DNA of 64,000 nt from a virus. A program made the translations under genes and the position numbers. Under the pieces are notes generated by a model that ran no database searches, was not told the DNA's origin, and worked only from the letters and a program-made list of their open reading frames with translations. Below, one piece after another: positions 1-41,477 of this stretch. The stretch's first letter is position 1. Each line of letters begins with the position of its first letter. Location of the stretch: the IMG/VR virus record IMGVR_UViG_3300042914_002334, positions 1-64,000 of that record. One strand, 5' to 3'.

Positions 1-774
1 GAATCCACTATTATCTATAAATCTATCGTGCTGACACATCAATATAGATGTAGTTGGCATGTCTCTGGTTGAACTTGTTTGATAATCTGATGTATACCAT
101 GATAACGGTCTTAATGGTTCACCAGATGGTATAAAAGTTTTACTAAAATTGTTTCTTACTGAAGAATAATACAGTGGCTCAACTGCATAAGACACAACTC
201 TTAAATTTGATACCAACACATTATTTAAATTTCTACCAACAACAAATTTGTCTGCTGTAAAATATGCAATTATTCCAACTATCGCACTGCTATCTATTAA
301 CGTCCCGCCTTGATAGAGCCATATATTAGTACCATTGGTTGAAAATGCAACATGTGTCCAAACATCTGGGGCACATTTAATTTTTGATGCCGATAAAGTT
401 ATAGTCGTGGTTGTGGTTTTAACTTTTGCTTGTATATATCCGTCGATCAAATACACCTGATATTGAAAGTCACTTTGACTTGATTGTTCTTGACCAAATA
501 ATATCTGACTAAATCCAGTAGTCGAAACTGAGCCAGCACTTGGTCTTATCCAACATTCAGCCGTCAAAATAGGACTATTATCGCTTGAGATATTTGTATG
601 AAAAGTAGTGACATTTAATTCCGAAGACGTTCCCATAACATCGTCGATAAAAAATCGTATGCTATTGGTTGTTTGTGGAATAATTAAATTGCCGCTTTCA
701 GTGAATACATCCACGCCAGCAGTAGCGGCAGTCGTTTGACTGCCTACTCCGGATGCCATTAAAATTCCAGTCAT
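1..774 (-). CDS. LamG-like adhesin/fibre protein, N-terminal part (cut by left edge)
   Basis: An open frame of 258 codons runs without a stop from ATG at 774 to base 1 and continues beyond the window. The start is supported by AAAGGA about 8 nt upstream and a CATAAATA promoter at 793-800. The N-terminus is MTGILMASGVGSQTTAA. Further in are ILTAECWIRP, VWTHVAFSTNGTNIW and VSNLRVV, which match the conserved strands of LamG/concanavalin-like units in the neighbouring 11434-18108 gene (there IECWV, WYHLAVTR and ISNLRVV). The last visible residues, DRFIDNSGF, match that gene's inter-repeat FIDNS segment. It is therefore probably a second LamG-type surface protein of the virion, perhaps carbohydrate-binding. 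An alternative start is Met6 (759). The role is inferred from fold resemblance only. Confidence 0.7.
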   Translation of the reverse strand, partial: MTGILMASGVGSQTTAATAGVDVFTESGNLIIPQTTNSIRFFIDDVMGTSSELNVTTFHTNISSDNSPILTAECWIRPSAGSVSTTGFSQILFGQEQSSQSDFQYQVYLIDGYIQAKVKTTTTTITLSASKIKCAPDVWTHVAFSTNGTNIWLYQGGTLIDSSAIVGIIAYFTADKFVVGRNLNNVLVSNLRVVSYAVEPLYYSSVRNNFSKTFIPSGEPLRPLSWYTSDYQTSSTRDMPTTSILMCQHDRFIDNSGF

Positions 775-792
775 TCAAAATGTCCTTTTAAC

Positions 793-800
793 TATTTATG
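793..800 (-). promoter_or_regulatory. Late-type promoter element CATAAATA
   Basis: Minus-strand CATAAATA 18 nt before the ATG at 774, with the ribosome site AAAGGA in between. It matches the T4 late element TATAAATA at 7 of 8 positions. It lies just after the stop codon of the 3,518-residue fibre gene. Confidence 0.55.
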
Positions 801-806
801 GCTCGT

Positions 807-3800
807 TTAAGTTATACTTCCTGTTAAAATTGCTTCTGTAGCACTGTTAAACCATAATAGTGCAGTTCCTCTTGCAGCAAGAACTAAATTGCCAGTGGTT
901 GTTGTGCCGTCTTTTCTTAAAGTAAGTCCGGAACCCTGAGTTAGTGTTATTGGCGACGCACTATCGTTATAGAAACTAAATGCATCTCCTGCTGCATACA
1001 CATTTGCTGGAATTGTTATTCCCGCAGTCAATGCAACTCTCTTGCCTTTTGCGTTTGCATCAAATGTAGTAGTTCTTGGTAAAACAAGATATCCAATATC
1101 TAATGCAGAAGCACCTGACCCTATCTGTGGAACATTAGTGAAAGAAACTTTATTTGTAGAAGTATTAAATGTAAAGGTATTGCTTGCTGCAAGTGTTCCA
1201 GTAGACGATCTATATTGTATTTCTCCGGCAGCACTGCCTCCGGCACTAACAGTTGGAGTTGACCAAGCAGGAATTCCATTTACTAAAGTCAATACTTGAT
1301 TTGCACTACCGACAGGCAATCTAGATAGTGTATTGCTACTATTTCCTACTAATAAATCTCCATTACTATAACTGGATATTCCAGTTCCGCCCTTTCCAGT
1401 AGTTAGTGTTCCAGTTATATTATCTGGAGTAATAGAAATTGTCTGCCAACTTGCGGTCGAACCGTTGGTAGACAAATATCTTCCGTTGTTAGAAGTTTGT
1501 GTCGGCAATAATGCGTTTATCGCTGCACTGACAGTTGTCGCTCCGGTTCCTCCCTTGTCTACTGGCAATACTCCAGTAAAAGAACTCGCTCCAGTGGAAG
1601 GATTTCCCCAAGAGACATTTGTTCCGTCAGTGACTAATACTTTTCCGCTGTCACCAGATTGTGGAGCAAGTATTGCTCTTGCTGCCGCTGGCTGCGTTGA
1701 CGCCCCAGTTCCGCCCTTGTCTATACCTAGTGTGCCAGAAATATCAGCACTTGTAATTCCAGCAACACTGGTAAATGCATTTGATCCGTTACTCTTTACG
1801 AATCCGGCGGTCAAGAAATTAGCACCAGTTCCGCCGTTTGATACTTTTAGAACTCCACTTAATTCAAATGTTCCAGTGGTCGTTATTGGCCCTCCACTGA
1901 ATATCAGACCAGTTTGAAGTCCTGATACATTCACACTTGTAACCGCTGTTTTCCAAGAAGAGTTTGTTCCATCACTCATTAAGAAATTATTGACTGTGGC
2001 GCCACTTTGAGGTGGCAATATTGCTCTTGCCGCTGCTGCTTGTGTTGAGGCCCCAGTTCCACCGTTGGCTATAGGTAGTGTTCCGCTTATATCAGTTGAG
2101 ACATTTAATTTATCAAGAAGAACATTTGATCCGTCAAATCTCAGAACAGTATTAGCAAGCGCGCCTATCACTCCAGCAAGACTATTAAGACCCGCTTGTC
2201 TGCTTCCGCCTCCTGTTCCGCCGTTTTGATGTGGAATTATACCAGTTATTTGTGTAGTATCTACGATAACTTTATCCCACATAACGACATTTGAATTTGC
2301 GTCCCATTTGAGATATTTTCCGTTATCAGTTGATCCCGGAGTAAGTAGTGCTCTTGCGGCGGCTGCTGGGGTAGTTGCCCCAGTTCCACCCTTGTTTATT
2401 GCTAATGTTTGCGATAATGTTTCTGCCAGGCCCGCCGTTATTTTTTGCCATGTCCCCCAATTGCTAGTACTAGCCCCGCCCTCTTTGAATCTAATCGACA
2501 TTACTGGATTAGTAGCGTTTCTTGGTATTGCTATTTGAGCGGCATATATCTGATTAGAATTCCAACTATAATCACTACCCAAACTTAACATTAGTTGATA
2601 ACTTTGATCATATGGGCTTGGAACTCCAGTTGGGCCGTTAGAATTTCCCGCAACGTATGTTGCGCCCCATTCTCTTACCATATTAAAGTCAGTGACTGTA
2701 GTATGTGATCTCAAATTACCAAAGTTTGCTACATTTTGACTTGCTTGAATTGCAGTAGTTGCTTCTGTTCCTCCATTGGATACATTTAGAGTTCCAGCAA
2801 CTGTTATCTCCGTGTCATTCTTTGTAAACGTTAAACCAGTTGTTCCGCCGTTTATGGTCTGTATTCCTGCTTCCCACGCAGGAGGGAAATTAGGTCCTTT
2901 ATTCGTCAATACATAACCCGCGGGCCCTGCTAATCCGTTAAGTTCCCAAGAACCAGTAGAGGTTATCTTTAATCTATCAGTTAGATTCACACCACTAATA
3001 GTTCTAAGAGTTAAAGTTGAGCCTCCAACTTCAATAGGACTAAATGTGTCAGATGCACGATTTATCGCTCTTATGCTTGAAGAGGTTACACTTGGAACAA
3101 ATTCTATTCCCTCTGCCGAATTTCCTAAAGAAACGCTTAGTGGGGCCTTTGGAGTTGTTGTTCCTATTCCAACTGAACCCGCAACATTAAGATTAGTTAG
3201 TGTTCCTACTTTTGTTAGTGAACTGTTCACAACATTACTTGCAAGAGTTGTCCCAATAATATATTGAGCATCAACAGTGGCGTTTCTCCATTCTGGAGAT
3301 GCGGATGATCCGGAAGATATTAGAACTTGTCCAAGTATTCCAGTGCTTCCATTGATATTCCACGCGCCGTTTGGAACTATAGCGAGTCTATTTACGAGAG
3401 AGGTTCCTGGTCCACTCGTAGTTCTTATAATTACGCTTCCGCCTTGAGAGAAAGTTGAATTTCCACCGTCTAAGTATACCGAACCGCCTTGCGAACCAAC
3501 CCCAGTGGCAGAAGAACCTCCGATAAACACATTTCCTGGAGCGCCGTTAGCCTCTACTTGAGTTCCTGGCTTGAACGAAATTCCCATTGGAGCCAATACC
3601 GAATTGCCATTTCGTTGCCCATTTGGAGTCTTGAAATAGAATAAATCTTGTTTGTTTAGTCCGGAAATAGTTCCCAAAGATAGAGTGTCAATATTATTGA
3701 AAACCATATTTGTTGCCGGAGTCACTGCACCATTCCAGTTATACAACATTTCTCCGTTGTTTCCATTTATTGGTATGGTGTTCATCGACTGCCAAGTTAC

Positions 3801-6800
3801 ATTAGTGCCATCTGACTGTAGGAATCTTCCCTCTCTACCAGTCTGAGAAGGTAATACTTCATTGATTGAAGGCAAGTTGGACCAAGTAGGAGCACTATTG
3901 ATACCATTGGATTTTAGAAATTGCCCGGTATTACCCGTGCTCATAGTTTCTCCGATAGTAAACGCACCTTGTCTGTTTATTCCGAATCTGTGTGTATGAG
4001 ATACACTCGAATCGAGAACGCTGCCACTAATTAATTTGTGTCTTATTGCAAAACTACCACCGTTCGGAGAAGAAGAAATAACAGGCATATCAATATAAAC
4101 ACTTTGACCCGCTGCGCTCGAATTGAAGCCAGGCGTTCCTGATTCCAACATTAAATTTCCACCCGACTGCCCAAAAGTTCCCGCGCCCGCTTTTATAAGC
4201 AAATCTGTTTGCCCGTAATTACCAGAGGGACTGACGATTTCTTTTATTCCAAGCATAGTGACAATATCAGTGTTAGTTCCACTCTTTGCAGCGCCCAAAT
4301 TAGTTCTTGCCTGTTCTGGGGTTGACGCTCCTGTTCCTCCATTGTCAACTAAAACTGTCCCATTTAAACTTGCTACTGAAATAGTAGAAGAATAACTTAG
4401 TGCTGTTCCGTTGCTAAACAAGTATCCAGGAGATGTCGTTGACAATCCAGTTCCGCCCTTTGTTATTGGCAATACTCCGTTAAAAGATACCGTTATATCT
4501 CCGGTTTGTCCAGTTACCGAGATATTGTCTCCCGCTAACAACTTCGTTACTCCACTATTAGTAATGGTGTTTCCATCTACAATTATTCCAGATTCTCCAA
4601 TAAATATTCCAGGGCCAGTAAACTGCGTGAATTTTATTGGTTCTATTCCGACATTTACAATATCGGCAGTCATCACCCATTGAGTGCCAGTGAGATTTCC
4701 CTCGGTAACATACATGGCGGCGCCGCGAATGACTGTTGAATTTGAATTAAAATCTGTTGCTCGTGTTAATATCCAAGGAGTAGAGACAGAAGTTAATATA
4801 TAAATTCCGTTCTCTATAGTATTTGTCTGACTTCTTACTAAGACTCGATCATTTAGATTTAATAATATCCCGTTAACTTCTCCCGGAGATGACGGAAAAG
4901 ACAATGTTGCTCCGACACCATTTGTTCCATTATTGTATGTAGCAGATAAATTAGTTTGTGTCGCGGTCTTCACGGAATCGCGAACTACTAAACCACTTAC
5001 GTAACTATCAACATAAGATTTGTTTACTGCCTCAAGTGCTTGTGTTGGATTATAATTCAGTATCAGTGGTCCACTAATAGTGTCTCCTGATTTAGAAACT
5101 GCATTTAAGTTTGCACGTGCAGTAGCAGCATTATTTGCATTAGTTCCACCCTTTTCTACGGTCACTAAGCCATTAATGTTTTCTGAGTTTATTGTTATAG
5201 TTCCCTGAATGTCACTCAATGGTATTTTACTAACTGCGGTAATGGGGTTTTCTCCAGAACCAACCAAGTATCCAGTAAGTGATGTCGCTCCAGTTCCTCC
5301 TTTATTCACTGGAACAGTATTACTTAGTTTATCGCTCGTTATACTTGGTATGTCTTCTTCTGACAAGAAGGTGCTTGTTATTTCTGAACCGTCTGATTTT
5401 AAAAATCCAGGACCAAAACTTGTTTTCCCAGTTCCTCCGCCACTTATACCAAGTGTTCCCCATGTTGGTGCTTGCGAACTTGCATTACTAATTAAAGTTT
5501 GTCCCTGCGTTCCGATATTAGTGGTTGGCCCAAAACTAACTGCTCCAGTTCTAAGTATTTCAAAATTTTTAGTATATAATATTGAAGGATCAAAATCTAC
5601 CCAAGTTATGTTTGATTCGTTTATCGTGCCCTGTAATTTGCTTCCGCTTAGTGAACCCTCAGTAATTTCAACTACTGGAATTTTATCGTTAGTTATTGCA
5701 TCTTCAAAATCGGAAACAATTGTAAACATCCAAACCACAGGATGATTCTTAAGTGTCATGACATATACGCGATTTTGTGACTGATTATCTTGATTTTTAA
5801 ATAGAATTCTATCACCAACATTGATATCGATATTATCGAATAATGCTAAATCAGAGCCTGCTGATATTTGACGTGTGGTCGCATTTCCTCCAACAAATGT
5901 TATATTTGCAGTAGTAACAGTTCTGCAAGACTCCAACATTGCATATTGAGAATCGTTATATGTGTATATCTTTAATTCTTTTGTTTTTATACTGACATTT
6001 TTTTCATCTGCCGCAATTAGATTTAAATCAGTTGCAGAAATAATATCAAATTTGGCATCAGTTGCAGCACCAACATTCAATTCAGTGTTGTTATATAATA
6101 ATTTTCCAGCAGTAGAACTAACACCATTATCATTAAATAGTATTTGTTTGTTTTGTTGTGAATTTAATGACAGTTTGGTCGTTTTATAGAATCCGGCTTC
6201 GTCTATCTCTGAAACAGCAGAGTCTATTTTAATTCCGCCAAGTTCAGTGGAAGTTGCGGCTGATACATCAAGTGAGTCCCAACTTAGAGTTCCAGCCCCG
6301 TTTGTTGTCAAGAACTTACCAGATTGAGAATCTTGAGTTGGTAATAGTGCATTTATTTTAGAACTAATTACACCGTTAGCAATTGTTATGGTAGTGTTGT
6401 CAACCTTCACTCCGCCCAATACTATATCTGACGCTGTTGGAAGAGTATACTCGCTACCTCCTCCACCCGAACCACCCCCAGAATATTGAGGAATATTAAG
6501 AACACCGTCTACAAGAGTTGCTGGCCCGCTTGTGCCAGTAGTTGTTACCGAAATTGGCGCTTGATAATCTATCCCAGCAACTGCTGAAATAACTTCCCCA
6601 GTAGTTGAATTTCCTTTTAGTAATCCAGACGTAGTAGTGGATATAGTTATATCTACAACTCCATTGGAATTATTTACATCACCTTTGAATCCTTTTTGCT
6701 GATTTACTGCAATACTGCTAATTACAGGAGAATTCCAAGTTGGAATATCACCTACTACCGTAAGTATTTGTCCGGCGGCGCCAACTGGAATTTTACTTAA

Positions 6801-9800
6801 TGTAGTTTCGTCACTGGCATATAGTAAATCTCCTGTTGCGTATTCCGAATGACCTGTGCCTCCTTTTTCGGTAGATAACACTCCGTCAAAGCCAATCGTT
6901 ACATTACCAAATTCATCCTTAGCAGAAACAGTTATGTCGGAACCGCCTGTTATGTTTACTATACCAGTGTTTATGATGTTTCTGTCATTAATGTTTATTC
7001 CTGCACCAGACTGATAAGGAAGTGCGTAGTCGATATCGGCAACTGCTGAAATAACTTCCCCAGTAGTTGAATTTCCTTTTAGTAATCCAGACGTAGTAGT
7101 GGATATAGTTATATCTACAACTCCATTGGAATTATTTACTTCTCCCTTAAAGCCTTTTTGCTGATTTACTGCAATACTGCTAATTACAGGAGAATTCCAT
7201 GTTGGAGTATTACCGACTACGGTTAATATTTGTCCGGCGGCGCCAACTGGAATTTTACTTAATGTAGTTTCGTCACTGGCATATAGTAAATCTCCCGTTG
7301 CGTATTCCGAATGACCTGTGCCTCCTTTATTTGCTTGCAATACTCCGTCAAAGCCAATCGTTACATTACCAAATTCATCCTTAGCAGAAACAGTTATGTC
7401 GGAACCGCCAGAAATACTTAGTATTCCCGTGTTTATGATGTTTCTGTCATTAATGTTTATTCCTGCACCAGACTGATAAGGAAGTGCGTAGTCGATATCG
7501 ACAACAGCAGAAATTACTTCCCCAGTAGTTGAATTTCCTTTTAGTAATCCACCAACAGTTGTGGATATAGTTATATCTACAACTCCATTGGAATTATTTA
7601 CTTCTCCCTTAAAGCCTTTTTGCTGATTTACTGCAATGCTGCTAATTACAGGAGAATTCCATGTTGGAATATCACCTACTACCGTAAGTATTTGTCCGGC
7701 GGCGCCAACTGGAATTTTACTTAATGTAGTTTCGTCACTGGCATATAGTAAATCTCCCGTTGCGTATTCCGAATGACCTGTGCCTCCTTTATTTGCTTGC
7801 AATACTCCGTCAAAGCCAATCGTTACATTACCAAATTCATCCTTAGCAGATGCTGTTATGTTAGAGCCACCATTTATGTTTACGACACCTTTATTATTGA
7901 TTGAGCCGGACAATATTTCTATACCAAGACCCGCTGATAATTGTGAAGGTCCTCCGAACTGTAAATAGACTATTTCTGTAGTTCCAACAGTAATAGTTCC
8001 AGATGTGGCCATTACCCACTGTGTGCTATTCTGAGTTCCATTTTTTACAAAATACGCATCCCCAGCCCGCATAGTATTATTTCCAGCATCTGCGGCTCTT
8101 CTTAATACGAATGGGTTAATAGTTTCGAGAACATATACTCCATTTTGAATACTATTCGTTTGATTTTTTACAAGAACTCTTTCATTTTGCTGTAGACTAA
8201 CTCCGTCTATTAGTGGAAGAGCACCCAACCCAGTCAATGTTGCTCCGCCTACTTCCGCATTATTATATGTTGCACTTATGTTTCCAGTTGTCGCAACAAT
8301 AACTTCTGGCTTTACATTAAAACCAGACAATACATTATCAACATATTTCTTAGTTACGGCATGCAATTCACTTGTCGGCGCTCCGACGAGTGTTAGCGGA
8401 CCAGTCATAGTGTCACCTGCTTTATTGAGCGGAGTAAATCCAAGTAGATTTTGAACTGCCCCCTGCGGAGTAGTAGCACCAGTTCCGCCGCGCTCGACTG
8501 GCAGAATTCCTTCCACATGATTATTGAGACTTACTTTTCCATAAACAGGTCTGACGCCGACTCCATTAGACAACAAAACATTAAATGTCGCTGCTGGTGC
8601 TATAGTTTCGTATGTATTTCCAGCTGATCCAACCAGTAATTCGCCAACACCTATGCCTTGTAATCCAGTTCCGCCTCTTACTACGGGAACAGTATTAAGA
8701 CCAAGACCTATCGCTATCTTTCCAGAAGAAGTTATAGGAGAAGTAGTTACTGATAAATCAGTGCTTGATATTTCTACTTGGTTTACTTTTCCGGTATTAG
8801 TATCAAAATATTGCTTAGTGACAGCGTGAAAAGGTTCTGTTGGATTTACACTAAGCGTTAAAGAACCAGTCATAGTGTCACCTGCTTTATTGAGCGGAGT
8901 AAATCCAAGTAGATTTTCAACTGCCCCCTGCGGAGTAGTAGCACCAGTTCCGCCGCGCTCGACTGGCAGAATTCCTTCCACATGATTATTGAGACTTACT
9001 TTTCCATAAACAGGTCTGACGCCGACTCCTTTAGACAACAACACGTTAAATTCTGCGACAGGTGCTATAGTTCCATATGTAACAATTGCCGCCGGCGGCC
9101 CCCCAACCAGTAATTCGCCAGGAAAAATGCCTTGTAATCCAGTTCCGCCTCTTACTACGGGAACAGTATTAAGATCAAGACTTATCGCTATCTTTCCAGA
9201 AGAAGTTATAGGAGAAGTAGTTACTGATAAATCAGTGCTTGATATTTCTACTTCGTTTACTTTTCCGCTATTTTGCTCAAAATATTGCTCAACATATTTC
9301 TTAGTTGCGGCATGCAATTCACTTGTCGGCGCTCCGACGAGTGTTAGCGGACCAGTCATCGTATCGCCAGATTTATTTACCGGAGTAAATCCAAATAGAT
9401 TTTCAACTGCCCCCTGCGGAGTAGTAGCACCAGTTCCGCCGCGTTCTACTGGCAGAACACCTGCCACATGATTATTGAGATTGACTTTTCCGTAAACAGG
9501 TCTTGCATCGACTCCATTAGACAACAACACGTTAAATGTCGCTGCTGGTGCTATAGTTCCGTATGTATTTCCCGCTGATCCAACCAGTAATTCGCCAACA
9601 CCTATCTGTTGAACCCCAGTTCCGCCCTTGTTTACGGGAACAGTATTAAGACCAAGACCTATCGCTATCTTTCCAGAAGAAGTTATAGGAGAAGTAGTTA
9701 CTGATAAATCAGTGCTTGATATTTCTACTTCAGTTACTGTTCCAGAACCTCCGCCTCCGAAACCGCCATCTCCAGTGGCACTAAGAACTCCATCAGAATT

Positions 9801-25747: not shown

Positions 25748-25797
25748 TGTGTCACCTAATAAGGATGTCAAAGAAATAATAATTTCTTTAGTATTTG

Positions 25798-25816: not shown

Positions 25817-25842
25817 AAAGAGAGAAATTAATTTCTCTCTTT
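25817..25842 (-). terminator. Intrinsic terminator, GAGAG family
   Basis: A perfect 26-bp palindrome (stem AAAGAGAGAAAT / ATTTCTCTCTTT, TA centre) followed on the minus strand by further T residues, 18 nt after the stop of the 25860-26990 gene. Confidence 0.8.
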
Positions 25843-25859: not shown

Positions 25860-26990
25860 TTAAAATCCAGGGTTTGTTGGCAAGGATCTAATAGAAGGAA
25901 TTGTTCCTATATTTGTACTGGTAGTATAAGCAAGAGACGCAGTGGTAGGACTCTTAGTTACAATCCACTCATTATTATTAGAAAATGGATTCATTGACGC
26001 CGCATTAAATCCTGAAATAGGAGAACCACTGTTTAGTCTAGTATTGGGTCCGTATCTTAACGGAGCATTTCCAAAAGAACTAGACGCACTTCTAACTGCC
26101 GCAATTAATCCCTTGCCTTGAATATTAGTAATAGTATTACCTTGAACAGTAAAACGAACTTTATTTGTGTTCCAAGAAGAATTCATTGTAACAAAAGAAT
26201 CTGTTTCATTTGAGATATTATTGATAACAATCAAATCATAAAATGCCGTGTTTCCAGCAGGATTAGAAAAGTTTTCATTAAATATAAAGTGACGAGATTG
26301 TCCCTGTTGTAACTGATTGTATGCTATCATCAAAACTCCAGCAGTAGGACTGACATTCACTACATTAAAATTAGTTGCATTTAAATTATTTCTAAAATAA
26401 TTTTGATAGACAAAAGATGTTCTTAGCATACTCGTGTCGATTAATGATTGTATTTTAACACCGTGATACCCTCCACTATTATTAGTAGAACCGTGCATTT
26501 TATAAAAATAACAGTTGTATATTGTAAATCCTACACTGTTAGTAGTTATTCCAGCGTGATCAAATTCAATATTACAATCTCGCACAACTACGTCTGGTCT
26601 AGTAATACTAATAGCACCCACTGACCCGCCGGCAGAAGTTTGACGTATAGTCAATGACCCAAGCACAATATTGGGCGCGTCACAACGAAATAAAGTTCCG
26701 GAGCCTTGAATAATAACAGAACTACTTTCTCCCCAAATTTGTACTGACTTAGTTATTGGTACACTCATAAAAATATTCGTGTATGTGCCATTTTTGATAA
26801 CGAGTTTATGTCCGTCTTTTACTCTACTATCTGATAGCGCCGCAGTTAAAGTTGTAAAATCAGATCCAGAACCCGATGGTCCAACTCTCCAATTTGTTTT
26901 TGGAGGTGGAGGTGGTGCTGGAGGAGGCGCAGCCATTTTGACGGTTCCAGTAGTTTTAACGTTTTGAACTGTGATACGTTTAGTTGCCAT
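25860..26990 (-). CDS. Right-handed beta-helix surface protein (376 aa)
   Basis: A basic N-terminus (MATKRITVQNVKTTGTVKM), then a proline stretch (PPPAPPPPPP, ~22-31), then a pectate-lyase-like parallel beta-helix. Key segments are GSDFTTLTAALSD..VKDGHKLVIKNGTYTN (a typical entry to such helices), IQGSGTLFRC, VVRDCNIEF and VFTIYNCYFYK rungs, and NNISNETDSFV. It contains no GGTG fibre repeats, unlike its neighbours. The proline-rich linker suggests a tethered depolymerase or passive adhesin. No catalytic triad can be assigned from sequence. Start ATG 26990, ribosome site AAAAGGAAT, own promoter CATAAATA and own GAGAG terminator. Confidence 0.75.
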   Translation of the reverse strand: MATKRITVQNVKTTGTVKMAAPPPAPPPPPKTNWRVGPSGSGSDFTTLTAALSDSRVKDGHKLVIKNGTYTNIFMSVPITKSVQIWGESSSVIIQGSGTLFRCDAPNIVLGSLTIRQTSAGGSVGAISITRPDVVVRDCNIEFDHAGITTNSVGFTIYNCYFYKMHGSTNNSGGYHGVKIQSLIDTSMLRTSFVYQNYFRNNLNATNFNVVNVSPTAGVLMIAYNQLQQGQSRHFIFNENFSNPAGNTAFYDLIVINNISNETDSFVTMNSSWNTNKVRFTVQGNTITNIQGKGLIAAVRSASSSFGNAPLRYGPNTRLNSGSPISGFNAASMNPFSNNNEWIVTKSPTTASLAYTTSTNIGTIPSIRSLPTNPGF

Positions 26991-28987: not shown

Positions 28988-29015
28988 AAAAAAGAGAGTG
29001 ATAACTCTCTTTTTT
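28988..29015 (-). terminator. Intrinsic terminator, GAGAG family
   Basis: 12-bp stem (AAAAAAGAGAGT / ACTCTCTTTTTT), GATA-type loop, flanked by more A/T. It lies 30 nt after the stop of the 29046-30935 gene. Confidence 0.85.
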
Positions 29016-30990: not shown

Positions 30991-30997
30991 CTATTTT

Positions 30998-31029: not shown

Positions 31030-31509
31030 TTATGTGTAATTTCCAGCATCTAAAGTAATACCAGTCAATGCTGTTCTTGCCACCCATTTTTGCGTGGCAA
31101 CATCATATTGCAATACTGATCCGTCTGTAATTGGTGCAGCGGCATCAACATTTCCAATATCCTCTAATTTATTTACAGTAGAATTCACTGTAAATAAAGT
31201 CCAGTTGTCTTCCGAATTAGGCATAGATCCAGTAGTCGTGTTTCGACTCTGACCATTTAACAAACTGTATTTGTAGTAACTGTCAGGATCGCGAGTCACG
31301 CTTCCAACGGTGTATCCATTTTTAAGATACACCAACATACCCTCGGTCAGTCGCTGACCAGTTATGTTTGTTAATCTGTCACCTGCATCACCGCTGATAC
31401 TTTGTAAAGTACCACGAACTTCAGTGTCCAATACTATTGGATGATCGCCAGTTGAACTCCAAGTTCCAGTCCACGTATTTCTTGTTAAGCCGTCGTAATT
31501 TGTGCTCAT
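31030..31509 (-). CDS. Small tail/fibre-associated protein (159 aa)
   Basis: Begins MSTNYDGLTRNTWTGTWSST. It contains IVLDTEVRGTLQSISGDAGDRLTNITGQRLTEGMLVYLKN, a compact beta-rich domain seen in other phage surface proteins, then KLEDIGNVDAAAPITDGSVLQYDVATQKWVARTAL (the DILAYDSATQKW-type motif also present in the 31506 gene) and ends GITLDAGNYT. The ATG at 31509 overlaps the upstream stop codon (ATGA), so translation is coupled to the 31506-34679 fibre. It may cap or adapt that fibre; this is inferred from coupling and the shared motif. Confidence 0.75.
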   Translation of the reverse strand: MSTNYDGLTRNTWTGTWSSTGDHPIVLDTEVRGTLQSISGDAGDRLTNITGQRLTEGMLVYLKNGYTVGSVTRDPDSYYKYSLLNGQSRNTTTGSMPNSEDNWTLFTVNSTVNKLEDIGNVDAAAPITDGSVLQYDVATQKWVARTALTGITLDAGNYT

Positions 31510-34500
31510 GATATACTCACATATGTTGTTCCAGGCTGCAAGGTTATGCCATACAGCGTGTATTGTTCAGCAACATATCCTGCTGGAGGGGTCGTTGGCT
31601 GCAAACTAACAGTGTTTCCAGATGTCACGCTTACATCCGATAACAACGATGAGGTTGGACCAGTTTTGAACGATGTTGGCTGACTTGCACTTGAGCGAAT
31701 GGCGAACCAAAATGCTCTTGGTGTGCTCTCAGAATTGGTTACGTTACCAGCAAATACTTTTACCGCATTTCCAAGTGCAGTAACTCCAGCAACAAAACTT
31801 GTTACAGTAACAATGTTTTCGACAGTCGGAGGACTACTTGTAGCAGCCGTAAATAACCACAAGCTTGGGTATGTAAATGTAGCACTGGCACTTGCAGTAG
31901 TTGAACTGAGGTTTGCAGTATATGAAGTTCCAGTTACACTTGCTGGGCGAGTAAATGTAGTAGAAACACTTACCGTTCTTGTAGTTGCTGTGTTATTTTT
32001 ATGTATAGGATCAGTAAATGTAAATGTTCCGCTTGCGGTAGCACTACTTGTAGTTCCGCCAACTGCGGTCACGCTATTAGCATAATTTGATGTGCTTGAC
32101 ATTCCAGTTACAGTAACTGTATATGCTACAGAGTTATAACTTTGTAGGAATGTGTTGCCAGTTAGACTTCCAAGTGTTGCGCTCAGTGTTGGCGTCGCCC
32201 AAGTAACTGATATATTAGCAGTTGACGTAGTATATTCAGCGGTGGTAGTTCCATTGTAGAAATTGAATGCTATGGTTCCTGCTGCACTTCCGCCTGCTAT
32301 AGTAGTGCTTGTTGATCTGATAAATGAATCGGCATCAGTTGTAAATGTCTGTGTCCAATCTACAGTTCCCGCTGGAGTAGCAGATTGACTTCCTGCGCTA
32401 AATGTATTCAATGCACTTATTGAACCATTTGTAGCAGTTATACTTCTAACGCTTGAGATATATTGATCGGTAATGTCATCTGGGTTTACTGCATTTACAG
32501 CAAACGATGTAATTGGTTGATCCCAACTTGGAGATGCTGGTGAAATCGTAGCACTGAGAGTTGGGGTAAAGGTAGCAAGCGTTAAACGAAGTTTGTTGTT
32601 AAAGAATTCTGCTACGCGAACTGGAGAAGTAGTCCCATTCTCTTTGTATCCAGTAAGAGTTCTGTATGTTCCACTTGTAGTCCAAATAAGAGGACTATTA
32701 TCAGTTTGTGTGGCAACATCTACCCAACTTAGTGTTCCTGCGCCATCTGTTCCTAGAACTTGACCGCTGGTTCCACCGCCAATACTTATGTTATTGACTC
32801 CCCCGAACGATACTTTGTTGCTTGTTGCCGTTACATTAGTTACGCCGCCCGGAGTTCCATTATTGTTGTATTGTAGTTGTCCGTTTGTGCCACCAACTAA
32901 TGATAGTGACACGGGCCCCCACTTCTGCGTGGCAGAATCATATGCAAGAATCTGTTTATCTTCTGGTGTGCCAACTACATCCAATAGAGCACTAAGTAAA
33001 CCAGATGTTGCTACCGTAGCAAATGTTGGTTTATTTTGTATATTGTTCCAAGTCAAATCTTCGCTAATTACGTAATTAGCATCGTTAGTGAATGTGCTTA
33101 GTCCAGGTGCTGTTCCAGTTATATTTTCCCAAGTTACACTTGATACTGTTATGTAATTCGAATCATTGGTAAATGTGCTTAGTCCAGGTGCTGTTCCAGT
33201 TATATTTTCCCAAGTTACATCTGTTAGTTTTATGTATCCAGTGATTGTGTTGTCGAATATTCCAACAGATGGCGCAGTGCCGGTAAGATTTTCCCAAGTA
33301 ACTGCATCTGATTTAATGTATCCAGCGGTGTTAGTAAAATCACTTAAATCAGTTGGTTTGTTTGTTAAATCATTATAATTACGACTTACACTAATTACGC
33401 CTTCTGTCGTGACATCTATATTAGCGCCTATCTTTACACCACCACGAACGGTAGAAGAGGCAACGGGAACAGGAATACTACTGGTCCAAGAAACATTCAA
33501 TCCATCAGTAATTAAGAACTTGTTCGACTGTCCCTCTTGTGCTGGCAATAAGTTATTGATTGCGGCAGTTGCATTAGTTGCTCCGGTTCCGCCGCTTTCT
33601 ACTGGTAGTGTTCCAGTGAATGATACTGTTATACCTCCAGTTTGTCCGCTAATTGCAATATTACTTCCAGCAGTAAGCGAGGTTACACCAGTGTTGTTTA
33701 TCGTGTTGTCAACGATGCTTATTCCGGTGCCAGCAGTATATACTCCAGCAGCACCAAACTGCGACCACTCGATATCACTCGTTCCAATTTCTATAGTTCC
33801 AGAAGTAACCATTATCCACTGAGTGCTCTTTTGTGTCACTCCGTTTTGTATGAATGTGAAATCGCCAGCACTTACTTCGTTTGCAAAACTGTTGTCAAAA
33901 TCACTTGCTCTAATTAGAGTCCATCCGGATGTGATTGATGCGAGTGTGTATATGCCATTTTGTTTTTCGTCTGTTTGATTTTTTACTAAAATTCTCTGAT
34001 TTAGTTGTATTGTGACACCATCTATTTGTGGGAATGCACCAGAGCCAGTAAGGGTTGCACCTATTCCAGAACTACCGTTGTTATAAGTTGCACTTAAATT
34101 AGTAGTAGTGGCAGCAACGCAAGCCAAATGAACATTTAATCCAGTGGCTACATTGTCAACATATTCTTTTGTTGCGGCTTCGTATGCGTTGATTGGGTTT
34201 GCATATAGAACCAATGGGCCAGTCATTGTATCGCCGCCGATATTTACTGGAGTAAACCCAAGTCCGCCAGTAATTTGACTTGTATTGATGTCAACCCATA
34301 CCGGACTTCCATCTAATGATGCCAATACTTTTCCGTTCGCTGATCCTTGTGATGGCAGCAAATTATTGATTGCTGACGCTGCGCTGGTTGCGCCGGTGCC
34401 TCCGTTAAATATGCCAAGTGTTCCGCCTACTGTAAATGTTCCAGTGGTCGTTATTGGACCGCCACTAAATGTTAGTCCAGTTGCTCCCGGGTCGATACTT

Positions 34501-34679
34501 ACTGATTTTACTGTTCCGTAATCTGGTTTTGCATTAAAGAAGTCAATTGCACCCAAATCAGTTTTGTAAAATAACTTCCCATCAGCGTAGTTGATAGCAA
34601 CTTCACCAAATGACAAATCGGTTGTTAAAGGCTGTTTACCACTAACACCCGAACTTTTTAATACAATCGTTGTTGTCAT
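31506..34679 (-). CDS. Tail-fibre protein with Ig-like C-terminal half (1,057 aa)
   Basis: N-terminal attachment-type domain TIVLKSSGVSGKQP..LSFGEVAINYADGKLFYKTDLG, sister to the 24041 fibre. Then GGTGAT repeats, the shared module (NQRILVKNQTDEKQNGIYTL...STQWIMVTSGTIEIG), and three to four tandem TWENITGTAPGLSTFTND repeats (DNA period 81 bp, 33040-33310). The C-terminal ~400 residues (from PTLSATISPASPSWDQPIT) are Thr/Ser-rich beta strands resembling tandem Ig-like domains. The start is ATG 34679 with AAAAGGAAAAATAA upstream, 13 bp after the preceding stop, so it is co-transcribed from the 35687 promoter. Probable host-binding fibre. Confidence 0.83.
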   Translation of the reverse strand: MTTTIVLKSSGVSGKQPLTTDLSFGEVAINYADGKLFYKTDLGAIDFFNAKPDYGTVKSVSIDPGATGLTFSGGPITTTGTFTVGGTLGIFNGGTGATSAASAINNLLPSQGSANGKVLASLDGSPVWVDINTSQITGGLGFTPVNIGGDTMTGPLVLYANPINAYEAATKEYVDNVATGLNVHLACVAATTTNLSATYNNGSSGIGATLTGSGAFPQIDGVTIQLNQRILVKNQTDEKQNGIYTLASITSGWTLIRASDFDNSFANEVSAGDFTFIQNGVTQKSTQWIMVTSGTIEIGTSDIEWSQFGAAGVYTAGTGISIVDNTINNTGVTSLTAGSNIAISGQTGGITVSFTGTLPVESGGTGATNATAAINNLLPAQEGQSNKFLITDGLNVSWTSSIPVPVASSTVRGGVKIGANIDVTTEGVISVSRNYNDLTNKPTDLSDFTNTAGYIKSDAVTWENLTGTAPSVGIFDNTITGYIKLTDVTWENITGTAPGLSTFTNDSNYITVSSVTWENITGTAPGLSTFTNDANYVISEDLTWNNIQNKPTFATVATSGLLSALLDVVGTPEDKQILAYDSATQKWGPVSLSLVGGTNGQLQYNNNGTPGGVTNVTATSNKVSFGGVNNISIGGGTSGQVLGTDGAGTLSWVDVATQTDNSPLIWTTSGTYRTLTGYKENGTTSPVRVAEFFNNKLRLTLATFTPTLSATISPASPSWDQPITSFAVNAVNPDDITDQYISSVRSITATNGSISALNTFSAGSQSATPAGTVDWTQTFTTDADSFIRSTSTTIAGGSAAGTIAFNFYNGTTTAEYTTSTANISVTWATPTLSATLGSLTGNTFLQSYNSVAYTVTVTGMSSTSNYANSVTAVGGTTSSATASGTFTFTDPIHKNNTATTRTVSVSTTFTRPASVTGTSYTANLSSTTASASATFTYPSLWLFTAATSSPPTVENIVTVTSFVAGVTALGNAVKVFAGNVTNSESTPRAFWFAIRSSASQPTSFKTGPTSSLLSDVSVTSGNTVSLQPTTPPAGYVAEQYTLYGITLQPGTTYVSIS
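33040..33310 (-). repeat. 81-bp tandem coding repeats
   Basis: aatgtgcttagtccaggtg recurs at 33091 and 33172 (81-bp period, ~50 bases identical), with diverged copies on either side. Encodes TWENITGTAPGLSTFTND units of 27 residues. Confidence 0.85.
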
Positions 34680-35705: not shown

Positions 35706-37796
35706 TCAAACATATGTGATGATTATTTTTGCCGCGCCTTGAGTAACGCCGGCCATCGCTAAGTTTCCAGTAATTAGAATGTCTCCATTTACATTTGCTC
35801 CAGTAGTGCCACCAATTCCAAACTTAGTAGTCCCGTCAATTATATATTTTCCTACCATTTTTAAATCAAACAAATTGTTTGTTGCCAGACCGTCTGCGGA
35901 AACTACTTCAGGAGTTGAAGCAATTTCATATCCTAAACTCATTATTGGAGTTCCGTTAAATGCGGCTGTAACATCTATCAGTATAGACACAATACGAGTT
36001 CCAGTTGTCAATTGTCCGATACTAAACGTTTGAGGTGTGATGTTACTAATACTGTAAGAAAGTGTCTTACTGTCAACAGTCGCAGAACTTTCTCTTCCTA
36101 TGATTGACCAAGCAGAGCCGTTCCACAACCACATACTCCATTGATCTACATAGTTTCCACTTCCGTCGGCGCTGTCAATCACATACGCTTGATCGCCAAC
36201 GAGTGGTCTTAGAGCATCGCGAGCCGTAATATTTGCTACGACTGACGTGTTTCCATTTCTTAGACCCTGTTCGATAAACAAGCCAAGAGCATAGTGTCCG
36301 TTTTGTCCGCTTACTACACCGCAAGTTGTCAAGAATGAACCCTGCTTGTCAATGATAGTCATAGGACCACCATCGTCTCTGCTTAGTTTCAATACTTCGT
36401 TAGCCGTATTAGCAGCAACACTTAGCGCCAAACTTGATGTGCTATTTGGACCCGCAAATGGGTTGTTATCAGCGTCATTTATGCCATTTTGTATAGTTAT
36501 TGATCCGCCAACTTCATTTTTGACAACCAGATTTCCACTATCGTCAGCATATGCTATTATGTTTGGAATATTTGCTTCATTGATGTCTATCGCCATATCT
36601 CCGGCGGCACAGTATGTTAAATCTGCAAAATTGAGTGAGGCATATATATTTGTCTTGAATGACACTGTTACTCCGTTTATCACGGCGGTTGGATTTGGGC
36701 CTGACTGTGGAAGTTTTAGTGCCACGAATTCATATGCACTTCCTAATCCACCAATATTACTTGTAATAATAGTAGCAGCGTTTACTTTTGATGCGGTTAG
36801 TTTATGTTGAGAAGACCCCGCGTTGATTGCATTGATTGCAAAAGTTAAATCATACGTAGCAGATGACGTATTGTTTAATGTTACTTCAACGCCATTCAAT
36901 TGAATAACATCACCAGAATTACCAGTTGGATTTGACCCAGTTCCTATAGAATAGGTTGGGTTAGCGGCGGCAATTTTCATTAGAATTGGTCTTCTACTTT
37001 CATCGCTTGTAGTTAGACCTCCCAAACCATCAGTAGTAGGATAAATGTAATCTCCGACGTTGCCTGGAAGCCCTGGAATAAAATCTACTATTCCGTTTCC
37101 TGGTCTTAGTATGAATTGATTTGGTCCAGGACCTGCACTGACAACTGTTCCAATAAACTTAGACACATTGTCAGCGTCACTCTTTACAAATTGCCCGTCT
37201 TCTATACAAATAGCATCGCCCTGTTTGAAATTATTATCCTTTTTCTCCAATATATAGTTTGTAAGTGGATTCATATAGTTAAATCTGGCCATAACATTAG
37301 AGCCAAATGTAACGCTAATAGTCGGAGGAGAAGGATCAATCATTGGCACTCCTAATTCATTTATTTGAAAGAATACCACATCCCCAACAACGCCAAATAA
37401 TCCGTTTCCTGATGTACTTAAAAAGGTATTGTACCTTAATCTATCTTCAACGATTGCAACTACTTCAGAGTCATTTTTACTGACTATACTAACAACTTGA
37501 AGTACCTTTGCATCCTGTGCTCCTGCAACAAAATCTCCGACTTCTACATCATTACCATTATATTGAAACGGTATTCTTGTTAGATTACTACCGTGTTGCA
37601 TTGGTATTGGAACACTAAAAGTAACCTTCCATCTGTATGGCTTTGGATTTGTACCGAACGCATAGTATGGGTCGCCACTTGAATTTGAATATGGCCAATA
37701 CGCATCTGGAATAGATGCAGTGGCCAAGGCAGAAATTACTTTTGGAGGTTTATTAAGACCTATAAAACTGGTTTTCCAGACATTTATTCCACTCAT
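35706..37796 (-). CDS. Virion structural protein, unlike the repeat fibres (696 aa)
   Basis: No GGTG repeats. The N-terminal ~150 residues (MSGINVWKTSFIGLNKPPKVIS...WPYSNSSGDPYYAFGTNP) are unrecognised. Residues ~190-260 (GDAICIEDGQFVKSDADNVSKFIGTVVSAG) resemble a beta-barrel. Later come ITARDALRPLVGDQAYVIDSADGSG..VDQWSMWLWNGSAWSIIG, a common phage surface motif, and a C-terminal beta domain ending KIIITYV. It begins 9 nt after the stop of the 37806 gene, with AAGGAATAAAA directly before ATG 37796, so it is the second gene of that transcript. It probably links fibres to the particle or is a tail-surface protein; function not recognised. Confidence 0.75.
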   Translation of the reverse strand: MSGINVWKTSFIGLNKPPKVISALATASIPDAYWPYSNSSGDPYYAFGTNPKPYRWKVTFSVPIPMQHGSNLTRIPFQYNGNDVEVGDFVAGAQDAKVLQVVSIVSKNDSEVVAIVEDRLRYNTFLSTSGNGLFGVVGDVVFFQINELGVPMIDPSPPTISVTFGSNVMARFNYMNPLTNYILEKKDNNFKQGDAICIEDGQFVKSDADNVSKFIGTVVSAGPGPNQFILRPGNGIVDFIPGLPGNVGDYIYPTTDGLGGLTTSDESRRPILMKIAAANPTYSIGTGSNPTGNSGDVIQLNGVEVTLNNTSSATYDLTFAINAINAGSSQHKLTASKVNAATIITSNIGGLGSAYEFVALKLPQSGPNPTAVINGVTVSFKTNIYASLNFADLTYCAAGDMAIDINEANIPNIIAYADDSGNLVVKNEVGGSITIQNGINDADNNPFAGPNSTSSLALSVAANTANEVLKLSRDDGGPMTIIDKQGSFLTTCGVVSGQNGHYALGLFIEQGLRNGNTSVVANITARDALRPLVGDQAYVIDSADGSGNYVDQWSMWLWNGSAWSIIGRESSATVDSKTLSYSISNITPQTFSIGQLTTGTRIVSILIDVTAAFNGTPIMSLGYEIASTPEVVSADGLATNNLFDLKMVGKYIIDGTTKFGIGGTTGANVNGDILITGNLAMAGVTQGAAKIIITYV

Positions 37797-37805
37797 TTTT
37801 ATTCC

Positions 37806-40800
37806 TTAAGTAAACATAACAAACTCAATAACTGCACTTGTCGCCCCAGTTCCGTTTGTCCCTGTTGCCGATTTTGTAAGACTAAGCTTCATAGTATGTA
37901 TTCCAGGATTAAACGCCGAGAATGCAGTTCCGGATCCGTTTGTTCCTATAGTTCCCGAAACCAATAGTTTCGTACTAGTGCCTTCAGAAAATGATCTAAT
38001 GTTATATGCGCCCCCCGATTTTTGTATTCCATAATACAGTATTGATAATGGGGGCGAGCTATATCCAGTAAAGGTAAATGTTACTTCGCAGGCGGTCGAG
38101 GCTACAGTGGTATAGACCGCAGTTCCTGTTCCAGCAAGAATAGTTGGTGTCCCAGCCAAATTACCACTTCCATCGTAATAAATTTCTACAGCAAATCTTG
38201 AGAGATTTCCAGCACCTCCGCCACTCCCTCCGCCACCGCTATACTGAGGAATGTTCAGTGTTCCGTTTGAGAATGTTGCAGGGCCGCTACTTCCAGTTGT
38301 TGTCAGTGTTATAGGAGCTTGATAGTCAGTTCCAGCCGAAGCAGCAGAAACTCCAGTTCCATTACCCTTTAATAGTCCATTTACAGAAGTTGTAAGTGTT
38401 ATTGCTGGAGTAGTTGTGCTATTGGAAACTGTTCCGCCAAATCCATTAGCAGATGTAACGCTTACAGCAGTAACTGTTCCACTGCCACCACCTCCAGTAG
38501 CATCGGTGCTGTTGACCCAAGCAGTTCCGTTGTATTTTAGAACTTGTCCGTTTGATGGAGAAGTAATGGTTACTGTTCCCAAATCAGCCAGATTTATTGT
38601 CGCGGAACCTCCAAGTGAGGCAGAGCGACCGTTAAATGTAACGCTGCTATTTGTCAGGGCGCTGTTAGATATGCCAGATAATGTTCCGCCAAGCGTTAGA
38701 CTTCCACTTGATGTCACGGTTCCAGTTAGTGTTAGTCCATTTACCGTTCCAGTTCCACCGACACTTGTAACGGTTCCGCTTCCACCATCACCAGTTGCAT
38801 CCGTGCTATTTACCCAATTACTTCCATTGTATTTTAGAACTTGTCCGTTTGTTGGAGAAGTGATGGTGACTTGATTCAGATTATTAAGACCAAAAGTCGT
38901 AGAACTTCCAAGAGCAATAGTAGTGCTGTTTATGGTAATGCTATTGTTCGTTAGTGCAGTGTTTGGTATGTTACTTAATGAACCACCCAATGTAATATTT
39001 CCGCTGCCAGTGACCGTTCCAGTTAGTGTTAGTCCATTTACCGTTCCAGTTCCACCGACACTTGTTACCGTGCCGCTTCCACCACCGCCAGTAGCACTCA
39101 GTGTGCCATTACTGTAAGAAAGTCCAGAACCAACAGTAACAGTTGTGAATCCGGAACCATTTCCTGCAACTATACCGTTTAAGGTGGTTGATACTGCAAT
39201 ATTTCCACTCGAAGTTACGGGTGAATTAGATACTGTGAAACCAGTTGGCATAGATAAACCAACACTGGTCACTGTTCCGCTACCGCCACCAGTTACTGTT
39301 CCCCACTCTAAAGCAGTTCCGGCAGAATTTACACGCAATACCTGATTCGCAGTTCCAATATTTGTTAAACCAGTTCCGCCGGAGGTTGTTGGAACGGTAG
39401 ACTGTGTGAACCCAAGTGTTACCGCTCCGTTAACGGTGGTTGCACTTACTGCGCCGCTTCCAGTTACACTTAAAACTCCCTTATTACTAATAGTAGTTCC
39501 ATTGACCTCTATTCCAGTCCCTCCAGTATAGGTTCCTGGGCCGCCAAACTGCGTGAACTCTACATCAGTAGTTCCAGTGTTTATTGCTCCAGTAGTCGTC
39601 ATTATCCATTGTGTGGTGGCAAGAGTTCCTTCTCCAACGAAGAAGGCATCGCCGGCGTTCATGTTTAAAGAATTATTAAAATCAATTGCTCTGGTCAACT
39701 CAAAAGGATTTGATGCAGTCATCAAATATATTCCATTTTGTGATTTAGTTGTTTGATTTTTAACTAAAACGCGATCACCGACATTTACTGTCAATCCACT
39801 AATAGTGTCCAGCGGGCCGGATCCAGTTAGTTTTGCTCCGACTCCATTTGTTCCATTAGTGTAGGTGCCACTAATATTTGATTGAGTTGCTACACGAGCG
39901 GCTTCTTTTATAAACAAGCCAGATACTAAATTATCTACATACTGTTTTGTTGCTGCTTGTAATGATGCGGTAGGATTTGCATTTAATGTTAGTGGGCCAG
40001 ACATAGTATCGCCCGTTTTAGCAACGCCGCCCAGATCAGCAAGAGTTATTGTTCTTGATCCACCAAGCGCAACAGCAGTTCCGTTTATAGTAATGCTGCT
40101 GTTTGCTAATGCACTGTTTAGTATGTTACTTAATGAACCACCGAGTGTCAAGTTACCACTTGTGGTAATCGTTCCCGTTAGAGTTAGTCCATTTACTGTT
40201 CCAGTTCCACCGACACTTGTAACTGTGCCGCTTCCACCACCGCCACCACCGCCAGTAGCACTCAGTGTGCCATTACTGTAAGAAAGTCCAGAACCAACAG
40301 TAACAGTTGTGAATCCAGTTCCATTTCCAGCAACTATGCCGTTTAATGAAGTTGATACTGCTAAAGTGCCGGCCGCAGTTATTGGTGATCCTGTCACGGT
40401 AAACCCAGTTGGCATACTTAGACCAACGCTGGTAACTGTTCCGCCTGTTGATCCTCCACCTCCTCCAGTGCTTGATATTTCTATTGTCTGAGTGTCAAGA
40501 CGATTGATGACCATATTGGCGCCGGCTTTCAACTTGACACTACTAATATGTGTTCCATCAGTGTCGCTACCAGTCAAACGAATTATTGCTCCGTCTGCTG
40601 TGCTTTGAGCTGTTGCAGTATAAACTACGCTCGCGTATGAACTTATTACACCCATTGGGTTTATAAGTATGCTGGTTCCGTCTACTCTTACTCCGCCGAG
40701 TGCAGAGTTTTGACCTGTGCCGGCTGTTGGCAGCGTATAAACAGTTGACGCAAATTCAAGTGCTGTTCCAGCAGAATTTACTTTTAGATATGAATTTGGT

Positions 40801-41477
40801 GAGCCAACTATAGTTAAACCAGTTCCGCCGTGCTCTATGTTTAATACACCATCAAGAGTGAAGTTTCCAGAACTTGTTATTGGATTAGTGGTGCTTGAAC
40901 TAACAGTTAAACCAGTTACGCCAGTGTCAAATCCAACACTTGTTACCGTTCCAGTTCCAGATGTGTTGCCCCAATATACTTGCCCACCGCCTTTAGTAAG
41001 TAATACTTGTCCTGCTGTTCCGCCAGCAATTGACAATTTGGTTATATCTGGCATAGATATAGTTTCACTTACTGTCAAGTTAGCAACAGTTAGCGTATTA
41101 GTGTTCTTGTTATACGCAAAGGTATCATCGCCGCCAAGATCGCCATTGTCATTGAACTGAATTTGTCCGTTAGAACCTCCTGGTTCATCTACATTCAATA
41201 CTTGTTGAAAAGAACGCTGATCAACGCCAGTAATGTATATGTCTTTGTCTGTATTATAGATGCTAACAGTATCGACTGTGACATAATTAGTTTCAGTCGC
41301 GGTTAATCCAGCAATAATTACAGATTTATCTGCTGCTCCGCTCAGTGCGAGTGAACCGGTGTTTAGTCCGCCAAGAGACGATGCATTAATTACAGTTGGA
41401 TTCGCAGTAGAGGTCGTAACAGTAGAAAACGGATCGTCAACTGATACTATTGTTTGGGTTGGGGTAATAATTGCCAT
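37806..41477 (-). CDS. Repeat tail-fibre protein (1,223 aa)
   Basis: First gene of the fibre array. N-terminus MAIITPTQTIVSVDDPFSTVTTS, then NGQIQFNDNGDLGGDDTFAYN, followed by several near-identical blocks of GTVTSVG(L/G)...FTV(T/S)(G/N)SP(I/V)T, GNGTGFTTVTVGSGLSYSNGTLSATGGGG, NGLTLTGTVTSSG and NGQVLKYNG..WVNSTDATG. It has one shared module (GDRVLVKNQTTKSQNGIYLM...TTQWIMTTTGAI) and a C-terminal ~110-residue beta domain (FAVEIYYDGSGNLAG...SAVIEFVMFT) that likely forms the tip. Repeated G4 runs (GGGGSG) act as linkers. Start ATG 41477 with AAGGAAAAATATA. Host-recognition fibre by repeat type. Confidence 0.85.
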   Translation of the reverse strand: MAIITPTQTIVSVDDPFSTVTTSTANPTVINASSLGGLNTGSLALSGAADKSVIIAGLTATETNYVTVDTVSIYNTDKDIYITGVDQRSFQQVLNVDEPGGSNGQIQFNDNGDLGGDDTFAYNKNTNTLTVANLTVSETISMPDITKLSIAGGTAGQVLLTKGGGQVYWGNTSGTGTVTSVGFDTGVTGLTVSSSTTNPITSSGNFTLDGVLNIEHGGTGLTIVGSPNSYLKVNSAGTALEFASTVYTLPTAGTGQNSALGGVRVDGTSILINPMGVISSYASVVYTATAQSTADGAIIRLTGSDTDGTHISSVKLKAGANMVINRLDTQTIEISSTGGGGGSTGGTVTSVGLSMPTGFTVTGSPITAAGTLAVSTSLNGIVAGNGTGFTTVTVGSGLSYSNGTLSATGGGGGGGSGTVTSVGGTGTVNGLTLTGTITTSGNLTLGGSLSNILNSALANSSITINGTAVALGGSRTITLADLGGVAKTGDTMSGPLTLNANPTASLQAATKQYVDNLVSGLFIKEAARVATQSNISGTYTNGTNGVGAKLTGSGPLDTISGLTVNVGDRVLVKNQTTKSQNGIYLMTASNPFELTRAIDFNNSLNMNAGDAFFVGEGTLATTQWIMTTTGAINTGTTDVEFTQFGGPGTYTGGTGIEVNGTTISNKGVLSVTGSGAVSATTVNGAVTLGFTQSTVPTTSGGTGLTNIGTANQVLRVNSAGTALEWGTVTGGGSGTVTSVGLSMPTGFTVSNSPVTSSGNIAVSTTLNGIVAGNGSGFTTVTVGSGLSYSNGTLSATGGGGSGTVTSVGGTGTVNGLTLTGTVTGSGNITLGGSLSNIPNTALTNNSITINSTTIALGSSTTFGLNNLNQVTITSPTNGQVLKYNGSNWVNSTDATGDGGSGTVTSVGGTGTVNGLTLTGTVTSSGSLTLGGTLSGISNSALTNSSVTFNGRSASLGGSATINLADLGTVTITSPSNGQVLKYNGTAWVNSTDATGGGGSGTVTAVSVTSANGFGGTVSNSTTTPAITLTTSVNGLLKGNGTGVSAASAGTDYQAPITLTTTGSSGPATFSNGTLNIPQYSGGGGSGGGAGNLSRFAVEIYYDGSGNLAGTPTILAGTGTAVYTTVASTACEVTFTFTGYSSPPLSILYYGIQKSGGAYNIRSFSEGTSTKLLVSGTIGTNGSGTAFSAFNPGIHTMKLSLTKSATGTNGTGATSAVIEFVMFT

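Follow-up and report, generated by a model that had tools for sequence, protein, structure and literature searches.

How is a phage locus to be read in which fibre-like genes follow one another on a single strand for more than 41 kb: as the attachment proteins of one particle, as decorations of its head or tail, as a bank from which different sets are drawn, or as an error of assembly? The window analysed here (64,000 nucleotides, bases 1-64000 of the 141,002-base virus record IMGVR_UViG_3300042914_002334) opens with such a block, which probably serves as the virion adhesin module, expressed late in infection, of a large (‘jumbo’) myovirus of the T4 superfamily. In the mechanism proposed, several late promoters of the T4 type would drive late transcription of the array genes, and the fibre-shaped virion proteins would then be assembled onto one and the same particle.

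The array and its phage

Positions 1-41477 hold 14 consecutive minus-strand open reading frames (ORFs), totalling 13,600 amino acids (aa) in the ORF listing and separated by gaps of -4 to 112 nt; they are numbered in the direction of transcription, from F01 (37806-41477) to F14 (1-774). A preliminary description of this DNA had reported fourteen consecutive same-strand fibre or adhesin genes with more than 13,000 residues, and the ORF listing and a composition screen agree with it; the two additional fibres that it placed at 49.1-50.9 and 55.4-59.5 kb are also real. The screen found 14 consecutive fibre-like ORFs here, and longest runs of 12, 7, 7 and 2 in the relatives G008, G005, G012 and G018. 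The same description took 1-41477 as a unit, which holds for the run of genes and fails for its completeness: the record stops at position 1, cutting the array within the incomplete gene at 1-774, and the array of a relative, G001, reaches 17 genes. The features are as follows.

37806..41477, minus: F01, 1223 aa, the array's first gene; core gene that also precedes F02 in the relatives L138-L142; contains GGTG repeats and the shared module
35706..37796, minus: F02, 696 aa; core gene; homologous over its full length to PA5oct gp181 (a structural protein by ESI-MS/MS), 32% identity
34692..35666, minus: F03, 324 aa; N-terminus resembling PA5oct gp180/gp179; C-terminus INGGTFG; late-promoter motif 28 nt upstream
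31506..34679, minus: F04, fibre of 1057 aa; G001 counterpart 70% identical; C-terminal half also in unrelated contigs
31030..31509, minus: F05, 159 aa; start overlapping the F04 stop (ATGA); travels with the F04 C-terminus
29046..30935, minus: F06, fibre of 629 aa; cyanophage-type structural protein domain; C-terminus DLDGGTY
28988..29015, minus: intrinsic-terminator-like hairpin in the F06/F07 gap
27065..28933, minus: F07, fibre of 622 aa; paralogue of F06 (N-terminal 44%); late-promoter motif GATAAATACTTT 46 nt upstream
25860..26990, minus: F08, 376 aa; candidate parallel beta-helix; a LamG gene instead in G001; late-promoter motif CATAAATACTAA 25 nt upstream
25817..25842, minus: intrinsic-terminator-like hairpin in the F08/F09 gap
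24041..25771, minus: F09, fibre of about 568-576 aa (start ATG 25747 or TTG 25771); shared module
20685..23999, minus: F10, GGTG-repeat fibre of 1104 aa; conserved ends; shaft exceeding that of the G001 counterpart by about 690 aa
18167..20671, minus: F11, 834 aa; N-terminal Mtd_N domain; tail-fibre-type C-terminus
11434..18108, minus: F12, 2224 aa; ten LamG (Laminin_G_3) domains
807..11363, minus: F13, GGTG-repeat fibre of 3518 aa; near-identical tandem repeats of 462 nt; G001 version 1975 aa
1..774, minus: F14, 5' part (258 aa) of a LamG adhesin gene cut by the record end; G001 counterpart 2074 aa
49108..50955, plus: F15, fibre of 615 aa, outside the block
55431..59528, minus: F16, fibre of 1365 aa, outside the block
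54955..55416, minus: tail-fibre assembly chaperone (Phage_tail_APC), adjoining F16
44012..46291, minus: ClpA-like ATPase, syntenic anchor upstream of the array
42754..43104, minus: homologue of PA5oct gp185 (ESI-MS/MS), upstream anchor

Some neighbouring genes have peculiarities of their own. PhoH (51087-51869) lies with F15 on the plus strand inside an otherwise minus-strand region, as it does in G001; a 177-aa ORF (54167-54700, minus strand), also found in G001, matches the DNA polymerase family phrog_11127 and may be one piece of a split polymerase, the PA5oct polymerase being split by a homing endonuclease; and the largest gene of the record, which codes for a virion structural protein of 3766 aa (phrog_10938; G000:C1:117707-129007, plus strand, equivalent to L015:707-12007), stands outside the fibre block.

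The portal (95332-97095), major head protein (90964-92160), head protease and terminase are all of T4-superfamily type. The ClpA-like and baseplate wedge proteins are nearest to those of Sinorhizobium phage Phosso and Agrobacterium phage Atu_ph07 (the wedge, at 32% identity to both, being near the Serratia BF and PBECO4/121Q groups as well), and the terminase is nearest to PA5oct and its relatives (53-54% identity); all of these are jumbo phages. On these similarities the phage is assigned to the RaK2/PA5oct/Atu_ph07 jumbo group of T4-superfamily myoviruses, and not to the ordinary T4-like phages. G001 (239,163 bases, ClpA 83% identical) is collinear with the present record between 41 and 89 kb. 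The first 138 kb of G001 are essentially without counterpart here, and the last 51 kb of the present record lie beyond the end of G001. Because the two incomplete records (141 kb and 239 kb) overlap and each extends past the other, a complete genome of about 280 kb or more is probable.

Protein content, virion evidence and expression

Repeat fibres, LamG arrays and beta-helices had been described in the block from its sequence. The repeats and the LamG domains are confirmed, with 21 GGTG motifs in F13 and eight in F10, and with ten Laminin_G_3 domains in F12 and one in F14, all of which pass the Pfam cut-off. The plural ‘beta-helices’ is unsupported, because F08 is the only candidate in the array and its model is poor (pLDDT 40, with weak Foldseek matches to PL6 lyases and pectin methylesterases at E about 0.02); as modelled, F08 is a possible beta-helix, and a search for its relatives among viral contigs found none. 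A battery of beta-helix depolymerases was likewise considered and rejected, Pfam and PHROGs showing no such domain in the array. The structure model of F02 (pLDDT 53, from an alignment of seven sequences) has no usable match in the PDB, where flagellin and jelly-roll coats come out on top, and both models are too weak to reveal trimers, tips or docking.

In PHROGs, most of the array products fall into tail-fibre or virion families. F06 and F07, paralogous to each other, are structural proteins of a cyanophage type, and F11 starts with Mtd_N and ends with a tail-fibre domain common to many phages. The motif (D/N)GGx(F/Y) stands at the C-terminus, or one or two residues short of it, in F03, F06 and F07 and in four proteins of the G001 array (174075, 175970, 177911 and 181584, the counterparts of F03, F05, F06 and F07); almost confined to array proteins, it might be a docking or folding tag. 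A module of about 230 aa is shared by six genes (F01, F04, F07, F09, F10 and F13, with two copies in F13), and it is here that a different function for the block suggests itself. Many of the products could be decorations of the capsid or tail sheath (whiskers or head fibres) which hold the particle near particles, mucus or cells, while one or two others bind the true receptor. The shared module indeed matches head-decoration PHROGs (phrog_2647) and a ‘capsid decoration protein’ of PSS2, LamG arrays are generic glycan or adhesion domains, and the related Atu_ph07 has hairy whiskers on its capsid and 131 virion proteins by mass spectrometry (PMC6102473). However, the labels given to the module by PHROGs and GenBank are mixed and include tail fibre as well, and at least F11 and F16 are better read as tail fibres, to judge from N-termini of Mtd_N and fibre type, C-termini of tail-fibre type and the assembly chaperone. 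As an account of the array, decoration is unlikely; for part of the genes it is compatible with a virion adhesin module.

The case that the array encodes virion adhesins draws on the cultured Pseudomonas jumbo phage PA5oct, for which mass-spectrometric identification (ESI-MS/MS) is noted in its GenBank record. The genes that begin at 48106, 47573, 46281, 44012 and 42754 are homologues of PA5oct gp189, gp188, gp187, gp186 and gp185, in that order, with the fibre block next; the PA5oct-type sequence of a ClpA-like gene, a gp185-like gene and an F02-type structural protein is thus present here. (The gp189 homologue, a virion protein encoded at 48106-48783, contains a 12/24-nt tandem repeat at 48143-48199 that codes for a Gly-Pro-Met-Gly-Gly tail.) In the block gp174-gp185 of PA5oct, ten of the 12 products carry an ESI-MS/MS note, the exceptions being gp183 and a cytidyltransferase; PA5oct is a distant relative, so this covers counterparts of some array genes, with F02 as the one clear full-length orthologue. 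A cluster of virion proteins identified by mass spectrometry also extends over this locus in Atu_ph07 (CDS 284-329; PMC6102473). Infection by PA5oct depends on no fewer than two receptors, LPS together with another, for example type IV pili (PMC6950013); this agrees with a particle that bears several adhesins but does not prove it. By analogy with PA5oct, then, and with the repeated late promoters described below, the earlier suggestion of a particle with many different adhesins gains support. All array products would occur together on each particle and would bind receptors or surface glycans, and the outcome would be recognition of several hosts or surfaces, that is, breadth of host recognition.

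The octamers most enriched upstream of ORFs (GATAAATA, ATAAATAC, TAAATACT and CATAAATA) are of the T4 late-promoter type. Of the 95 ORFs in this record, 18 have the motif [CGT]ATAAATA no more than 60 nt upstream (0.7 expected if it were uniformly distributed), as do 35 of 210 in G001 (1.9 expected). In the array it is found 25-46 nt before F03, F07, F08, F12, F13 and F14, with AATAAATACTAT before F10, and the same motif precedes the portal, baseplate wedge and other virion genes. About half of the 14 array genes have no such motif near their start, and therefore some must be transcribed by read-through from upstream units. Terminator-like hairpins occur in two gaps, F06/F07 and F08/F09; a scan for sigma-70 promoters gave no excess over shuffled sequences, and a search of the window against Rfam found nothing. 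The simplest reading of these signals is that the array comprises several late transcription units, all of which would be active at the same stage.

Separate promoters and hairpins would also permit independent expression, in which different infections used different sets of the genes and the adhesin set was switchable; the preliminary description had allowed for a bank of this kind. Such a bank is very improbable. The promoters are of one late type that is common to ordinary virion genes, and the idea is unsupported because no reverse transcriptase, recombinase or long inverted repeat was found: the search for switching enzymes, which covered incomplete records (about half of the phage genome lying outside the present one), revealed neither a reverse transcriptase nor a recombinase of the serine or tyrosine class, whether here, in G001 or in four relatives, and the block contains no inverted repeats of at least 40 nt. 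Two specific devices were rejected on the same grounds, namely a diversity-generating retroelement, which the Mtd_N domain of F11 had brought to mind (no RVT_1 in this record or G001), and an invertible tail-fibre cassette or integrase switch (no resolvase-type or tyrosine recombinase, and no such inverted repeats).

Variation and probable growth of the array

In G001, the array occupies 138753-187830 (17 genes over 49 kb), with the order and strand found here; G002 is identical to G001 over 80 kb, although both are IMG/VR records and may not be independent samples. This correspondence bears on the suspicion that the array is an artefact of assembly, in which fibre genes of several phages have been fused. 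The genes are rich in repeats, those of 462 nt in F13 are nearly identical, and the contig ends within a LamG gene, all of which could invite such an error. Misassembly, named beforehand as the outcome that would overturn the preliminary view, is nevertheless largely ruled out; it is exceedingly unlikely because G001 carries the same array in the same order, with orthologues over 49 kb. The copy number of the F13 repeat alone remains in doubt.

The preliminary description had also proposed comparing the block across related metagenomic phages, and the comparison with G001 revealed gene replacement, extra genes and changes in length. G001 has a LamG gene in place of F08 and an additional LamG gene between its counterparts of F13 and F14. 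F13 is 3518 aa long here and 1975 aa there, F10 is 1104 versus 410 aa, F09 is 568 versus 329 aa, and F12 has ten LamG domains here and eight in G001. Whole-length identity to the G001 counterparts has a median of 0.43 in the array, versus 0.68 in the flanking genes (p=0.0003). Within the fibres, conservation is higher over the last 60 residues than in the middles (medians 0.72 and 0.41, p=0.007), and the first 60 residues (0.64) differ from the middles at a borderline p=0.054; F01, the tip of which is divergent, is the exception. The array thus differs mainly by stalk length, with tips better conserved than middles.

Exchange between phages is suggested by two sets of observations. Unrelated contigs carry the C-terminal half of F04 alongside the N-terminal part of F05 and retain the overlap of stop and start; in the short viral contigs L145-L148, which are unrelated to this phage, the F04 C-terminal half and an F05-like N-terminus are followed by two or three more fibre genes, an arrangement that reads as a mobile fibre cassette. 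F02 is 51-57% identical to its homologues in L138-L142 but 43% identical to that of G001, whereas the corresponding values for ClpA are 44% and 83%; F02 has likely been exchanged between phages, a conclusion taken from these identities, since an F02 tree, in which the outgroups are long, lacks the strength to prove it.

The distribution of arrays in the wider group is uneven. Five environmental phages (L138-L142, ClpA 43-45% identical) have only F01 and F02 between their gp185-like and holin-like genes; most phages with ClpA identities of 58-72% have no fibre gene within 10 kb after ClpA, and their fibres, where examined, lie elsewhere. G008 (524 kb) has its own run of 12 fibre-like genes (362645-399027), the N-termini of which are different. 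(Directly upstream of that run, at G008:C1:357815-361735, are four tandem glycine-rich proteins of about 310 aa that begin M(D/E)xTGGxTFxGG.) Because L138-L142 hold F01 and F02 alone and G008 has a run of its own, large arrays recur in the group and F03-F14 seem to be additions. F01 and F02 are likely the ancestral core of the locus; F03-F14 look like additions made after F02, the direction of change being read from gene content rather than from a rooted tree of the whole group. In the mechanism favoured here, F01 and F02 would accordingly be the founding core, F03 to F14 and beyond would have been added after F02, and the array would have been reworked as genes were replaced, modules were swapped between phages and internal shaft modules were gained or lost, with docking N-termini and tips tending to persist.

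A bolder form of this history, which is tentative and on balance doubtful, treats the locus as open-ended. A founder pair (F01-F02) would be followed by an insertion zone; docking ends and tips would be fixed, while shaft length was tuned by repeat modules, so that many tips stood at different distances from one particle. The structure might even be branched, the tip of one fibre docking the next, as the movement of F04 and F05 as a pair could indicate.

Known phages with many fibres

If all products do share one particle, they would form one of the largest adhesin repertoires so far described in phages. The preliminary description had considered a handful of fibre genes to be usual, a statement that overlooks the precedents of the Klebsiella jumbo phage phiKp24, with 14 putative tail fibres that are branched on the particle and a broad capsule range (PMC9700779), and RaK2, in which ten fibre proteins have been demonstrated in the adsorption complex (PMC10253068). 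Many-adhesin jumbo phages are therefore known; what is new is a LamG/GGTG-type, largely non-depolymerase set with changes of shaft length and conserved ends. The array is an environmental, mostly non-depolymerase addition to the few jumbo phages with many attachment proteins. Because the G001 array differs from it gene by gene, the growth of large fibre sets becomes testable, as a matter of fixed parts (docking ends and tips) versus free parts (shaft length, LamG number and replacement of whole genes).

Each of the known systems resembles the array in part. The block gp174-gp185 of PA5oct (Arenbergviridae, Wroclawvirus) shares its position after a ClpA-like gene, the upstream order, an F02 homologue and a LamG-like adhesin (gp175), but it is shorter (about 20 kb and 12 genes), has far fewer fibre genes, includes other adhesins (a kelch-like protein) and is of low identity (32% for F02). 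Atu_ph07 and Phosso also have an F02-type protein and fibres after a ClpA-like gene, but their fibre-like genes there number only some three to five. The F06 and F12 modules are commonest in the T4-like cyanophages of Synechococcus (as LamG and ‘structural protein’ fibres), which differ in genome type. A run of many different consecutive fibre genes, of the kind seen in RaK2 and phiKp24, is present in this record (14 genes) and in G001 (17 genes). The Klebsiella phages RaK2 and phiK64-1 (Alcyoneusvirus) are likewise jumbo myoviruses of the wider group, with a fibre-gene run at gp526-gp534; in RaK2, however, seven of the fibre proteins are beta-helix depolymerases, in contrast to at most one candidate here. 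By number of genes the array is of the same order as the fourteen putative fibres of phiKp24, all of which have predicted beta-helix depolymerase domains and the branching of which was seen by cryo-EM, whereas the array described here is known from its genes.
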